Shown piece after piece: positions 34,046-40,005 of a stretch of DNA of 64,000 bases. Positions within the stretch are counted from its first letter, which is position 1, and each line of letters starts with the position of its first letter. Origin of the DNA: Acidobacteriota bacterium (GTDB lineage Bacteria; Acidobacteriota; Terriglobia; Terriglobales; Acidobacteriaceae); assembly GCA_013289685.1 (NCBI GenBank), contig JABCZL010000003.1, forward strand, positions 248,001-312,000, read 5' to 3'. The notes beneath the pieces are model-generated. The model searched no databases and was not told the DNA's origin. It worked only from the letters and a program-made list of their open reading frames with translations. Both the position numbers and the translations under genes were made by a program.

Positions 34046-35967
34046 TATTGGTTTGCACCTGTTGGGCTCGCACCGGCTTGGCTTGCACCGGCTGCTGCGG
34101 CTCCTGCAATTCCTGCGGCCCCGGCTGGCGCGGCTGCGGACGCTGCATCTGTGGCGCTCTGGGCTTCGCCTTTCAGCCAGGCAGTGCGGCGCGCCCGCTG
34201 CCCGGCGGTGACCTGGTCGAGGTCTCTGACTTCGTAGGAAATTTCCTGACGGCTGCCGATTTTCCATTTCAAGTCGCGCTCCGCTCCGCGGCGCGAGCGG
34301 ACCTTCACTGCGAGCGTGTCGCCGGGATTCAGCCGCGCCAACTCCTGACGAGATTCCTGACCGGCGGTCTTGCCTTGCAGTTCAACGATCGTGTCACCCG
34401 CCTGCAGGCCGGAATGTTCGGCGTCGCTGCCTGGAGTAACTGCCGCGACCGTCATGGGGCCATCGAAGTTGCGGGACGCGATGAAGCCCGCGTCGGGCAT
34501 GGTGTTGGTAATGGCCTGCACGCGCAAGCCAACCGGACGGAAGAAATCATCCCAGGAAATCTCTTCGGTTCCGGCCACATACTGCGCGAAGAAAGAAGTC
34601 AGGTCGGCGTGACTGACAGCTTCGGCGGCCTCGCGAACGCCTTCGGAATCGTTGAAGAAGCGGCCCTTCTTGGCGAAGTTCTCATTCATCCATTGCAGAA
34701 GTTCTCGGAGTGAAGCGTGCCCGTGGCTGACGTCGCGGACCGACAAGTCAAGAATTGTGCCCAGCAGTTCGCCTTTGTTGTAGTACGAGATGCTGCGCTC
34801 GGGACGGCGGTAGTAACCGTTGCCTTCGAGCCAGGCGTCGAGGCTGGATTCCTCGGCCGACTGCGTCAGATGCGCCGGACGGCGCTCGAGTTCCGTGATC
34901 TGCTGGCCGAGTCCGTTGAGGTATCGTTTTTCGTCGATCAGGCCGGCACGGAACTGAATGGTCTCTTCGGCGGTGCTGGTGACTCCTTCGCTGAACCACA
35001 GCGCGCGCGTGTAATTTTCCTTCGTGTAGTCCACCGGTTCGAGCGTTTGTGGCCGGATGCGCTTCACGTTCCACAGATGAAAGAATTCATGCGAGGTCAC
35101 GCTGGTCAGGGGATACAGCGATTGCTTCATGACGTCGGCATTCAGTTCGATGGCGGTGGAGTAGGCGTGTTCCATGCCGCCGCCAGCCTGGCCGTGCGGA
35201 AAGTGGTAGATGAACGTGTAGGTGTCGAAGGGGCGGTCGTTCATCCAACTGATGGCGGCGACGACGATTTTGTGCAGGGCGGAAACGATCTTTGCCATGT
35301 CGTAGTCGGCGGGGTCGGCGTCGACGATGACGCGGAAGTGGCCGCCGGATTCGTCGAAGTCGGACTCCTCAAAGTTGCCGATCTCGACGGGAGAGTCGAC
35401 GAGGCGGTCGTAATTTGTGGCTGTGAACTCGCCGCCCGCGGACAAGGTGAGCGGAGTGGCGATGTGCCATCCTTCAGGAATAAGGCTGAAACGCAGGCTG
35501 AGCGCGGCAGCGCGAGCGTCGACGGGGTACATCAGAATCTGCGCCAGATTCAGAAAGGCGTGATGAGGGTTCAGTTGCGCGCCGAACGGTCCGGGCGAAT
35601 CGACATAAATCTGATACTCCACAATCGCTCCGCCCTGTGCGCCCTCAATCCGCCAGCGGCTTGAGTTGAGTTCCTGCAGGACCAGAGGCTTGCCCGAGCG
35701 ATCCTTGGCGCGAATCCAGTTCACGTACTGGGCGAAATCGCGGACCTGATACAGAGCGTTCCACACGGGGAGTTGGAGTTCGCGCTGGGCCGCGCCTGCA
35801 GGCAGGATGATCTGCACGTTTACCAGATGCAGCTCAGGAGAAGACAACGAGACGGTGTACGCGACGGCAGCGACGGACTGCGCGGTCGATGTGGTCGATG
35901 CCGCGAGAATCACCGTACAAAGTGCTCGACGCAGAGATCGACATGCAACCCCAGGGAGAAAGTTCAT
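34045..35967 (-). CDS. M61 family metallopeptidase (glycyl aminopeptidase type) with PDZ domain
   Basis: 640 aa. N-terminal hydrophobic segment, then a beta-rich domain, then the zinc site HEFFHLWNVKRI with the downstream acidic FSEGVTSTAEE. The M61 fold is followed by a PDZ domain near 510-590 (PDAGFIASRNFDGPMTVAA; GLQAGDTIVELQGKTA). The C-terminus is Ala/Gly/Ser-rich (AAPAGAAGIAGAAAAGAS). Overlaps mpl upstream by 4 bp (ATGA) and plsC downstream. Likely periplasmic peptide turnover (inference). Confidence 0.87.
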   Translation of the reverse strand: MNFLPGVACRSLRRALCTVILAASTTSTAQSVAAVAYTVSLSSPELHLVNVQIILPAGAAQRELQLPVWNALYQVRDFAQYVNWIRAKDRSGKPLVLQELNSSRWRIEGAQGGAIVEYQIYVDSPGPFGAQLNPHHAFLNLAQILMYPVDARAAALSLRFSLIPEGWHIATPLTLSAGGEFTATNYDRLVDSPVEIGNFEESDFDESGGHFRVIVDADPADYDMAKIVSALHKIVVAAISWMNDRPFDTYTFIYHFPHGQAGGGMEHAYSTAIELNADVMKQSLYPLTSVTSHEFFHLWNVKRIRPQTLEPVDYTKENYTRALWFSEGVTSTAEETIQFRAGLIDEKRYLNGLGQQITELERRPAHLTQSAEESSLDAWLEGNGYYRRPERSISYYNKGELLGTILDLSVRDVSHGHASLRELLQWMNENFAKKGRFFNDSEGVREAAEAVSHADLTSFFAQYVAGTEEISWDDFFRPVGLRVQAITNTMPDAGFIASRNFDGPMTVAAVTPGSDAEHSGLQAGDTIVELQGKTAGQESRQELARLNPGDTLAVKVRSRRGAERDLKWKIGSRQEISYEVRDLDQVTAGQRARRTAWLKGEAQSATDAASAAAPAGAAGIAGAAAAGASQAGASPTGANQ

Positions 35968-37433
35968 CGCTTCCCTGCCAATTCTTGCAGGCGTGCGGGC
36001 AGCTTTTCATAAATTCCGCCGAAGCCGCCGTTGGAAAGAATCGCCACGACATCACCACTGCGCATCTCAGGAGCGGCGGTCTGCACAATTGCGTCAGCGT
36101 CGGCGAGAAGCCGCGCCCGGCGGCCGTTGCGCTCGATCTCGGCGGCGAGAGCAGGCAACTCGAGGCGCTCATTTTCCGGGACCGCTTCTAAGCGGAACAC
36201 GCCCGCCACGATTACTTCGTCGGCCTGCGCCAGGCTGTGGGCCAGGTCCGCTTGCAGGACGCGGCGGCGCAGTGTGTTGGAACGTGGCTCCAGGATTGCC
36301 CATAGTCGCGCGCCGGGATAACGCGCGCGCAGCGCTTTCAGCGTTCCCGCGATCGCGGTGGGATGATGCGCGAAATCGTCGATGATGGTAATGCCGTTCA
36401 CCTGCGCCTTTACTTCGAGGCGCCGCTTCACGCTCTTGAATGTCTTGAGCGCCGCCGCAATCGCCTCTTTCGGAATGCCGCAGGAAACCGCGAGCGCTGC
36501 GGCCGACGTGGCATTCCAAACGTTGTACTCACCGGCCAACGGAAATTCGAGATCGGCCCATGGCTGCCCGTCGTGCAAGACGCTCCAGGAGGTGCGCGCG
36601 GGTTCGAGGCGCAGGTTCGTGACTTTCCAGTTCGCCCGCGGCCCCGCGCCGTAGCGCTCTACGGGACAGAACGCTTTGGCCAGACATCGGTCGAGACTCG
36701 GACTGCCCGCGGCTTCGCCAGCGAAACCGTCGAAGGCTACGATTCGTCCGCGGCGTGGGATCAGGTTCACCAGCCGCTTGAATGCGGTCTCGACGGCATC
36801 GAGATCTTTGTAGATGTCGGCGTGATCGAACTCGACCGAGGTCAGAATCACAGAGTCGGGAAAGTAGTGCAGGAACTTCGGGCCCTTGTCAAAGAAGGCC
36901 GTGTCGTACTCGTCGCCTTCGAGGATGAAGTGCTTGCCTTCGCCCAGATGAAAGCTAGAACCGAAATTCTCGGCGATGCCGCCGATCAGGAACGACGGTT
37001 GCAGCCCAGCGAAATGAAAGATCCATGCCAGCATGGAAGTCGTCGTGGTCTTGCCGTGAGTTCCGGCGACGACCAGTACTTCCTTGCCGCGGAGAAATTC
37101 GTCGTGCAGTAATTGTGGCAGAGAGCAAAAAGGAATGCGCCGGTCGAGAAGGTGCTCCAGTTCAACGTTACCGCGCGACATGGCGTTGCCGACGACGACC
37201 AGGTCGGGACGCGGTTCGAGATTTTTCGCGTCGAAGGGCTGCGCCACGGGAATGCCCAACTCGCGCAGAAAGTCCGACATCGGGGGATAGGCCGCGGCGT
37301 CGGAACCAGTCACGTGAAAACCGCGCTGCTTCAGCATTCCGGCCAAGGAAGCCATGGCGGTGCCGCAGATGCCGATCAGGTGAATGTGCTTTTCTTCGCT
37401 CTGCTTGTTTTCGCTCTGCTTGTTTTCGCTCAT
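35964..37433 (-). CDS. mpl: UDP-MurNAc:tripeptide ligase Mpl
   Basis: 489 aa Mur-ligase fold. N-terminal HLIGICGTAMASLAGML, the ATP loop VVAGTHGKTTTTSMLAW, EGDEYDTAFFDKGPKF (typical of Mpl) and DDFAHHPTAI. Attaches the recycled L-Ala-gamma-D-Glu-meso-DAP tripeptide to UDP-MurNAc. Begins with a SENKQSENKQ repeat. Lies in an operon with ldcA (murein recycling) and dapF. Confidence 0.93.
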   Translation of the reverse strand: MSENKQSENKQSEEKHIHLIGICGTAMASLAGMLKQRGFHVTGSDAAAYPPMSDFLRELGIPVAQPFDAKNLEPRPDLVVVGNAMSRGNVELEHLLDRRIPFCSLPQLLHDEFLRGKEVLVVAGTHGKTTTTSMLAWIFHFAGLQPSFLIGGIAENFGSSFHLGEGKHFILEGDEYDTAFFDKGPKFLHYFPDSVILTSVEFDHADIYKDLDAVETAFKRLVNLIPRRGRIVAFDGFAGEAAGSPSLDRCLAKAFCPVERYGAGPRANWKVTNLRLEPARTSWSVLHDGQPWADLEFPLAGEYNVWNATSAAALAVSCGIPKEAIAAALKTFKSVKRRLEVKAQVNGITIIDDFAHHPTAIAGTLKALRARYPGARLWAILEPRSNTLRRRVLQADLAHSLAQADEVIVAGVFRLEAVPENERLELPALAAEIERNGRRARLLADADAIVQTAAPEMRSGDVVAILSNGGFGGIYEKLPARLQELAGKR

Positions 37434-37504: not shown

Positions 37505-38452
37505 CTACGGCCTCACCGCCGATTCCAATATTCTCAGGGCCACGCGCCCATCGCTTACCTGAAGTCTGGCCTGCACCCCGAACGGCAACGTAATGTTTCC
37601 CGAAGAAACATGGCCTGAGCGGACGCCGAAGGCGACGGGCACTCCCAGGTCCCCAACAACTCGGCGGACGACATCCTGCAGAGTGTAACCCTGATTTGCG
37701 GCTTGTACGCAGTCGACCATCTCGCCGAAAACGATGCCGCGTACTTCGTCGAAAAATCCAGCCAGCTTCAACTGCATTAACATGCGGTCGATCTGAAAGG
37801 GCTTGGCGGCGATGTCTTCCAGAAACAGGATTGTGCCGGCGGTCTCGATTTCATTGGGCGTGCTGAGCGAGGCGACCAGGATCGAAAGGCATCCACCGTA
37901 TAACGTGCCCTCGGCCAGGCCGTCGACCAATCCAGTGACTCCCGCGCCAAGAGGCACGTCCCACGCTGCCGCTTTCGAAACCGCCACTTGCCAGGATGTC
38001 AGGTCGACCCCGTTTTCGTGCGACCAATCTTTGGCGACCATTGGGCCGTGGAACGTGATGAGGTCTCCGGCATCGTGAAACCACGTCAGCAAAGTGGTGA
38101 TGTCGCTGTAGCCGACGAATATCTTAGGATGGGACTTGATCTTTTCGAAATCGAATTCCCGCAGCAGATAATTCGCGCCATAGCCGCCGCGTGCACAAAC
38201 AATGGCGCGCACGTCGTCGCGAGCGAACATCTCTTCCAACTCACGGGCTCTGCGATCGACCGAACCGGCGAAATAAAGGTCCTTCTCCAGAATCGAATCG
38301 AAATAGAACGGAATGTATCCGGCGCGCCGCAGCGCCTCGCAGCCTGCTTCCAAGTCAGCCCGTTTCACGTTGCTGGCGGGGGCGACAATGCCCACGGTAT
38401 CGCCGGGACGAAGAGCGGGTGGTTTCACGGGCTGAAAATTCGAGGAAGACAT
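37505..38452 (-). CDS. ldcA: LD-carboxypeptidase (S66 family)
   Basis: 315 aa. PGDTVGIVAPAS at the N-terminus, GARGGYGA-like ARGGYGANYLL, nucleophile serine in GYSDITTLL, FHGPMV, and a C-terminal domain. Removes the terminal D-Ala from murein tetrapeptides in the cytoplasm, making the tripeptide used by Mpl, the next gene. 71 bp separate the two, with a repeat relic between. Confidence 0.88.
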   Translation of the reverse strand: MSSSNFQPVKPPALRPGDTVGIVAPASNVKRADLEAGCEALRRAGYIPFYFDSILEKDLYFAGSVDRRARELEEMFARDDVRAIVCARGGYGANYLLREFDFEKIKSHPKIFVGYSDITTLLTWFHDAGDLITFHGPMVAKDWSHENGVDLTSWQVAVSKAAAWDVPLGAGVTGLVDGLAEGTLYGGCLSILVASLSTPNEIETAGTILFLEDIAAKPFQIDRMLMQLKLAGFFDEVRGIVFGEMVDCVQAANQGYTLQDVVRRVVGDLGVPVAFGVRSGHVSSGNITLPFGVQARLQVSDGRVALRILESAVRP

Positions 38453-38503: not shown

Positions 38504-39304
38504 TCAACTCACCAGAAATTCTCCCCGGCACACCAGCCGCGCCGGACCGCGCAGAAAAACTTTATTCCCATTCGTGCGGACCGTCTGAATCCCGCCGGGT
38601 GCGTGGACCTTTACCGGCGAAACCGCCCGTCGCGTTGCCATCGCGGCGACTGCCAAGGCGCAGGAGCCGGTGCCGGACGACTGTGTTTCTCCGACGCCGC
38701 GTTCAAAAAAACGCGCTCTCAAATCGTACTTGCTGTCGACCGCGACGAGTTCCACGTTTACGCCTTGTTGAAAGTGCGGGTTGCGCTGGATTTCTGCAGC
38801 TTGCGCCTGCCAGTTGGTTTTGAACTCAGAAACGAAGGTGACAAAGTGCGGGTTGCCCATGGATACAGGAATGCCTCGCACTTCTCCGTTGGGCAGTTTG
38901 AGCGCGAGTTCGTCCTGGACGACGGCCTCGCCCATCTCGACTTCAAACTCATACTCGGAATCTCTGCGCGAGATCAGCTGGCAGATCTTCATCCCGGCGC
39001 CGGTCAAAATTGAAACCCGTTCTTTTCCCAACTGGGCGCAAACGTAAGCCGCTACGCAGCGCGTTCCATTGCCGGAAATCTCCGCCGCGGAGCCGTCGGC
39101 ATTGATCAAGCGGATTTCCACGTCGGCGGTAAAGTGTGGAACCATCCACTCCACTCCGTCGGCGCCAACACCGTCGTGGCGGTCACAGATGCACCGCGTA
39201 AACGCCGACACATCCTGCGGAGCCGACGCGCCGTCAATCAAAAGAAAATCGTTGCCGCAGGCGCTGGCCTTGACGAATGGAATGGTGCGGACGTCCGTGC
39301 TCAC
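38504..39304 (-). CDS. dapF: DapF-family protein with both catalytic cysteines replaced by serine
   Basis: 266 aa, DapF fold by full-length likeness to diaminopimelate epimerase: FVKASACGNDFLLIDG, the DGVGADG loop, NADGSAAEISGNGTRC, SMGNPHFVTFV and ERGVGETQSSGTGSC. In E. coli DapF the catalytic cysteines are Cys73 (QCGNGARC) and Cys217 (ACGSGACA). The aligned residues here are Ser77 and Ser210, both TCC codons. Start is GTG 39304, overlapping the MgtC stop. If Ser cannot replace Cys, this may not be an active LL-DAP epimerase. Confidence 0.8.
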   Translation of the reverse strand: MSTDVRTIPFVKASACGNDFLLIDGASAPQDVSAFTRCICDRHDGVGADGVEWMVPHFTADVEIRLINADGSAAEISGNGTRCVAAYVCAQLGKERVSILTGAGMKICQLISRRDSEYEFEVEMGEAVVQDELALKLPNGEVRGIPVSMGNPHFVTFVSEFKTNWQAQAAEIQRNPHFQQGVNVELVAVDSKYDLRARFFERGVGETQSSGTGSCALAVAAMATRRAVSPVKVHAPGGIQTVRTNGNKVFLRGPARLVCRGEFLVS

Positions 39305-40005
39305 TCGTGGTCCACCCGTCCGAGCGAGGTCACGCCGAGCAGCACGGTCGACGCTTTCAATTTCTGGAGTAATTGTTTCTGCTCGCGGTTGCAGCCTGAA
39401 ACGTCGAATTGCAGGCGGACGTGCTGGCCGGTGTTCGCGCTGACCGTGTTTTTCATCAATTGGTGGTAACTCTCCAGAATGCGGTTAACCTCGTTGCTGA
39501 TTTCTTCGACACTGGCGCCGGTGACTTCGTAGCTGGTCATCAGCAGCTTGAGATTAAATGTTTCTTCGAAGTGGCCGAGAAAAAAGAGTGCGAGCAACAC
39601 CAGTCCGGTGGCGAAGACGGCGGTCAGGTAAAGGCCGCCTCCCGCGGCCATTCCAACCGAGGCGACTACGAACAGCGTGGCCGCCGTGGTCAGGCCGGTG
39701 GTGAGGCCGCGGGTGTGTAGAATCGAACCCGCACCGATAAAGCCGATGCCCGGGATGATCTGAGCCGCAATCCGTGCGGAATCCGAGGGCACGCCTGCCA
39801 GCCGTTGAGAAAGTACGGTGAACATCGCGGCGCCGAAACAAATGAACATATTGGTACGGAGGCCGGCGGCGCGGTGTCTGAATTCGCGCTCCAGGCCGAT
39901 GAGACCGCCGAGAATCGCCGCCAATACCAGACGCGTGAGCGAACTGCCAACGACTCCACTCGCCATCTCCCGGCGCAGCAAATCGACGAAATGTTGCCAG
40001 TTCAT
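39301..40005 (-). CDS. MgtC/SapB family membrane protein
   Basis: 234 aa. Four to five N-terminal helices with MgtC signposts: AILGGLIGLEREFRHRAAGL, RTNMFICFGAAMFT, IIPGIGFIGAGSIL and GLTTAATLFVVASVGMAAGGG. The soluble ACT-like C-terminus covers residues 155-234. Role in the family: magnesium-linked adaptation and modulation of F-type ATPase. Overlaps the next gene by GTGA. Confidence 0.88.
   Translation of the reverse strand: MNWQHFVDLLRREMASGVVGSSLTRLVLAAILGGLIGLEREFRHRAAGLRTNMFICFGAAMFTVLSQRLAGVPSDSARIAAQIIPGIGFIGAGSILHTRGLTTGLTTAATLFVVASVGMAAGGGLYLTAVFATGLVLLALFFLGHFEETFNLKLLMTSYEVTGASVEEISNEVNRILESYHQLMKNTVSANTGQHVRLQFDVSGCNREQKQLLQKLKASTVLLGVTSLGRVDHE

Follow-up and report, generated by a model that had tools for sequence, protein, structure and literature searches.

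Serine at both catalytic positions of a DapF homologue: a probably active diaminopimelate epimerase variant of many Acidobacteriota families

The accepted chemistry of DapF, the diaminopimelate (DAP) epimerase, is that of a thiol/thiolate pair. A dapF homologue in a 64,000-nucleotide stretch of DNA (the whole stretch that was analysed, called the window here) encodes a protein from which the two catalytic cysteines of DapF are absent, with Ser77 and Ser210 in their place. Either serines can do DapF chemistry, or these bacteria make meso-DAP by an unrecognised route. Because both catalytic cysteines are replaced, we describe the gene as a variant of DapF and not as a standard Cys/Cys DapF. The relevant features of the window are the following.

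38504..39304, minus strand: homologue of the diaminopimelate epimerase gene dapF in its Ser/Ser form; GTG start, 266 aa (TIGR00652, 195.5 bits)
39074..39076, minus strand: TCC codon of Ser77, which replaces the cysteine of the E. coli CGNG motif (Cys73 in the numbering of the sequence-only reading that preceded this analysis)
38675..38677, minus strand: TCC codon of Ser210, which replaces the cysteine of the E. coli ACGSG motif (Cys217 in the same numbering)
37505..38452, minus strand: ldcA-like muramoyltetrapeptide carboxypeptidase gene, the next gene downstream of dapF (NF008424, 156.5 bits, below the cut-off of 378)
35964..37433, minus strand: mpl, murein tripeptide ligase gene, the second gene downstream of dapF (TIGR01081, 458.5 bits, cut-off 388.7)
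39301..40005, minus strand: MgtC/SapB-family gene, upstream of dapF (profile matches below curated cut-offs)

The match of the window protein to the DapF family model is above the curated cut-off of 114.65 bits. The sequence-only reading had placed TCC serine codons at both catalytic sites within otherwise retained motifs, and both statements held. When the protein is aligned to E. coli DapF, whose sequence was translated from an E. coli record, Ser77 sits on the cysteine of CGNG and Ser210 on that of ACGSG, alignments with five DapF structures from the PDB place the two serines on the same catalytic positions, and the flanking motifs together with E. coli DapF fix the alignment at both sites. 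The ldcA and mpl neighbours that the sequence-only reading named are also present, both downstream, with mpl above its cut-off and the ldcA-like gene below. On the upstream side, the stop codon of the MgtC/SapB-family gene overlaps the dapF start, which suggests co-translation. Five other dapF loci have PBP4 (L136, L176 and L200) or degP/htrA (L147 and L169) as their immediate upstream neighbour.

In an AlphaFold2 model of the window protein (pLDDT 96.7, pTM 0.92), Ser77 and Ser210 are each predicted to directly precede a helix. The top PDB matches to the model are ligand-bound DAP epimerases, 9mro (Z 36.9, rmsd 1.4 over 252 residues) and 3ejx (Z 36.0), and proline-racemase-type structures share 11–18% identity with it. 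Since the third-best match is an O-ureidoserine racemase (Z 34.7), the substrate cannot be read from the fold alone. Residues that contact DAP-like ligands at both ends are described for Anabaena DapF in the available part of PMC12039745. The window protein itself has N18, N68, N79, N151, N183, E201, R202 and T212, and these contacts are kept almost throughout the 130 Ser/Ser sequences described below (N18 in 128, N68 in 130, N79 in 129, N151 in 129, N183, E201 and R202 in 130 each, and threonine or serine at 212 in 130). The protein therefore shares its family score, predicted fold, DAP contacts and helix-start catalytic positions with the DapF enzymes of E. coli, H. influenzae, Anabaena and A. 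thaliana (TIGR00652), but has a serine pair where these have a cysteine pair.

Besides positions 77 and 210, the sites that separate Ser/Ser from Cys/Cys sequences include 13, 15, 76, 86, 165 and 209. Across the 130 Ser/Ser sequences, the serine pair is not joined by any newly invariant ionisable residue that could obviously activate it. Cys16 (KASACGND) was considered as a compensating residue and rejected, since this position is variable in the other Ser/Ser sequences (L, Y, S, R and others).

How widely the serine pair is shared was determined by typing 210 DapF sequences, after duplicates of L003 (L001 and L002), fragments (L017 and L106) and two loci chosen for their matches to meso-DAP dehydrogenase (Ddh; L131 and L132) had been left out. 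The count is 130 Ser/Ser, 78 Cys/Cys and two Cys/Ser, with no other state. Within the genus, where 43 genomes matched and 30 loci were taken, all 29 sequences typed are Ser/Ser, the window's own included. Further sequences of the phylum, typed from 288 matched genomes besides the own genome (G000) and G006, are Ser/Ser in 68 of 68 cases and span 26 family codes, a sample biased by having been drawn from the top matches of a Ser/Ser query. Phylum genomes with a weak match or none to this query (51 chosen, giving 30 loci) yielded 24 Cys/Cys and 5 Ser/Ser among 29 sequences typed. Both versions occur within one family code, f27, where L103 is Cys/Cys and L093 Ser/Ser. A pattern-based scan of named genomes, sampled as the best 80 of 576 confirmed stretches, gave 52 Cys/Cys and 28 Ser/Ser. 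All 28 Ser/Ser records among these best 80 of 576 are titled as Acidobacteriota groups, including Acidobacteria, Terriglobia, Bryobacterales, Vicinamibacteria, Blastocatellia, Pyrinomonadaceae and Aminicenantes, whereas no title among the 52 Cys/Cys records names such a group, although two of these (L179 and L188) name no phylum at all. Aminicenantes we take to be part of the Acidobacteriota, and their sequences sit in the tree beside loci marked as the same phylum, which fits this membership. The remaining two Cys/Cys sequences, L215 and L216, come from loci that were chosen for lysA and also contain dapF; L128 and L129 are Cys/Cys in the full alignment.

This distribution settles whether the serines are real. 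Sequencing error, a pseudogene or a misalignment has virtually no chance of being the explanation: the frame is intact, the pair recurs in all 29 sequences typed from the genus and across 26 of the phylum's family codes, and the flanking motifs and E. coli DapF hold the alignment in place. Conservation in relatives, which the sequence-only reading had proposed as the check on sequencing error, thus rules out an error or a local mutation. The refuting case that it named, relatives with cysteine at both sites, found no example among the close relatives typed, although other families of the phylum do have Cys/Cys enzymes.

A natural half-way case is seen in the two Cys/Ser sequences, L133:2953-3816 and L134, which come from IMG/VR viral contigs and read CGNA...ASGSCSC. 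The two are alike, and thinning at 70% identity kept one of them. By eye, the remaining open reading frames of L133 look part phage-like and part bacterial. Three Ser/Ser sequences (L079, L176 and L200) have a cysteine three residues past Ser210 (SGTCS), in the same place as in L133. Plasmid and phage collections gave no match of at least 60% identity.

The number of copies per genome was also considered. With the Ser/Ser query, 67 of the 68 typed phylum genomes have one DapF match and G327 has two, a query that can miss divergent copies because two of nine no-match genomes (G227 and G330) were positive for PF01678. Two genomes, G102 (L102 and L242) and G282 (L101 and L243), carry a divergent DapF of the Cys/Cys type together with a Ser/Ser paralogue; the paralogue has the motif SG[ND]GLRIF and may have another role.

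The serine codons were compared across the 130 Ser/Ser sequences. At Ser77 they are TCC (59), TCG (32), TCA (15), TCT (15) and AGC (9), and at Ser210 TCG (55), TCC (45), TCA (19), TCT (10) and AGC (1). TCC and TCT are one change away from a cysteine codon. A quick tree with long branches was built from 140 sequences thinned at 70% identity, with the two catalytic columns removed. Its main Ser/Ser group comprises 70 rows with no other state (SH-aLRT 99), and a second, separate Ser/Ser group contains three rows (L101, L104 and L108). This tree calls for two changes, although a topology with just one Ser/Ser clade is not rejected (p-AU 0.588). The main group has no other state although its codons are of the TCN and, in a few lineages, the AGC type, so it seems to be serine itself that is maintained at both sites there.

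If the serine enzyme were inactive, meso-DAP would have to come from elsewhere. The sequence-only reading had proposed looking for a second dapF or an LL-DAP aminotransferase, and neither turned up: the own genome (98.9% complete) has one PF01678 gene at E 0.001, and TIGR03540, the model for the aminotransferase DapL, is above its cut-off in none of 119 phylum genomes. The aminotransferase would in any case be no bypass of the epimerase, as its product is LL-DAP and not meso-DAP; a bypass would come from Ddh. Ddh (PF16654) has no match in the own genome at E 0.001 and none in 117 of the 119 sampled phylum genomes, the own genome included. The two exceptions, G118 and G199 (L131 and L132), have Ddh-like matches that cover PF16654 positions 1-59 and 1-58 of 154, and G199 carries a Cys/Cys DapF (L216). 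None of the 26 genomes with Ser/Ser DapF only (a set that excludes G102, which holds both versions) is among these two positives, the sample being drawn with the same settings. A Ddh bypass was accordingly rejected.

Two other candidate sources were rejected as well. A proline-racemase-type enzyme (PF05544) is encoded in 36 of the 119 genomes, and the own genome has one such gene, on another contig; as a general substitute it fails, since 11 of the 26 Ser/Ser-only genomes match, the own genome among them, and G006, a 100%-complete member of the genus, has no match. A hidden epimerase beside lysA was sought in 15 lysA neighbourhoods, where no family but lysA was common to more than five; the simple ORF picker used found lysA in nine of the 15, and on visual inspection the shared genes resemble UvrA, LpxC and YebC.

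In the own genome, lysA (501.7 bits) and murE (510 bits) are both over their cut-offs, and the murE translation contains DNPR, presumably the DAP-type motif. Among the 26 Ser/Ser-only genomes of the 119-genome sample, lysA is over its cut-off in 25 and has no match in G297. The supply of LL-DAP is a real gap: DapL was above its cut-off in none of the 119 genomes and DapE (TIGR01246, one model) in none of 11, so these model searches did not identify the LL-DAP-forming enzymes here. In G215 (L241:8735-10832), an M20 peptidase gene and the Ser/Ser dapF overlap at a distance of about 4 kb from lysA, an arrangement that is suggestive only; the DapE/ArgE-like matches of this peptidase gene are below cut-off.

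From sequence and model, we lean, with some reserve, towards the window gene being the organism's DAP epimerase, a member of an Acidobacteriota DapF lineage in which two serines replace the thiols. The case for a function on DAP is that an intact pocket has long been conserved together with held serines. As judged by the conserved residues and predicted fold, LL-DAP would enter the standard pocket, where Ser77 and Ser210, at helix starts on opposite faces of the alpha carbon, would replace the two cysteines as acid and base. One serine would take the alpha proton and the other would return one, giving meso-DAP, which could then pass to lysine through LysA, to peptidoglycan through MurE and into recycling through Mpl. 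A bolder claim, which we hold tentatively and at just under an even chance, is that this natural racemase works without a cofactor and without any catalytic thiol: the two-base transfer of the alpha proton of DAP would fall to two serine hydroxyls, a chemistry retained in many Acidobacteriota families that would feed lysine and the cell wall and that neither thiol reagents nor aziridine-type DapF inhibitors would affect.

Viable dapF mutants exist in E. coli. This weakens the argument from necessity, and activity does not follow from being the sole copy. A larger LL-DAP pool in an E. coli dapF mutant is cited in the available part of PMC6254735.

Precedents from related enzymes bear on the chemistry. 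In the proline racemase superfamily, an active 4-hydroxyproline 2-epimerase whose catalytic pair is Ser/Cys (B9JQV3 in the legend of a figure) is described in the available portions of PMC4113996, which also mention clusters lacking one or both cysteines. Like the window protein, this enzyme has a DapF-like fold and a natural serine as one catalytic residue, but it retains a single cysteine, numbered Cys236 in the legend and Cys255 in the text, and acts on another substrate. By analogy with it, a serine can act in a DapF-like fold. The same source describes a Ser90/Thr256 enzyme that is likewise without a catalytic cysteine and uses serine as base, although its chemistry is that of a dehydratase and a threonine, not a serine, stands opposite. 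One-sided threonine replacement in an aspartate/glutamate racemase is named in the available part of a review (PMC8142540), which gives no Ser/Ser case. Within the literature searched, which covered few subscription papers, neither a Ser/Ser DapF nor the stereochemistry of DAP in Acidobacteriota is reported, and the accessible portions of PMC6403190, PMC8841776 and PMC5900883 hold nothing on either subject.

The sequence-only reading had left two branches, a working serine version or a changed role with another enzyme making meso-DAP. Under the latter, which is the chief rival and which we consider unlikely, the Ser/Ser protein is not an epimerase and binds DAP or a close analogue for other chemistry or a regulatory job. 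Laboratory mutants lend it weight, as Cys-to-Ser changes nearly abolish activity in relatives: such mutants of PddB keep <0.1% activity, likened by the authors to M. tuberculosis DapF mutants (PMC8225329, in part), and those of HisR are greatly reduced (PMC11602996, in part). HisR, PddB and O-ureidoserine racemase are also DapF relatives in which the substrate has changed, as in F. nucleatum, where a predicted DapF is a histidine racemase (PMC11602996), although HisR and PddB differ from the window protein in having a Cys/Cys pair. The rank of O-ureidoserine racemase among the structural matches, the dehydratase chemistry of the Ser/Thr enzyme, the Ser/Ser paralogues beside Cys/Cys copies in G102 and G282, and the failure of TIGR03540 and TIGR01246 to find LL-DAP-forming enzymes point the same way. 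Against a changed role stand the contacts to both DAP ends, kept in nearly all 130 sequences, the single PF01678 match in the own genome, and the patchy occurrence of PF05544, even though the own genome has one such gene. The sole PF01678 gene, the lack of a Ddh match, the presence of lysA and murE and the retained binding residues together favour the branch with a working serine enzyme.

An improbable alternative keeps DAP epimerase activity and has Cys40, Cys83, Glu75 or water transfer the proton, the serines only positioning the substrate. Cys40 is found in 128 of 130 Ser/Ser against 38 of 78 Cys/Cys sequences, and Glu75 in 119 of 130 against 30 of 78. However, Cys40 is absent from L037 and L169 and Cys83 from ten sequences, and the glutamate two residues before the catalytic position forms a salt bridge to the substrate-binding arginine in Anabaena and A. 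thaliana DapF (PMC12039745, available part). The sequence-only reading had also raised other active-site cysteines; Cys40 and Cys83 are not new, both being found in Cys/Cys enzymes as well.

The Ser/Ser DapF variant of many acidobacterial families is, on sequence and predicted structure, probably active. With two serines in an otherwise intact DAP pocket, the question of hydroxyl-based epimerisation is directly testable. Were the Ser/Ser protein inactive, these bacteria would require an unrecognised source of meso-DAP. Either outcome would correct how dapF is annotated automatically in a major phylum of soil bacteria, and would have a bearing on thiol-directed DapF inhibitors.
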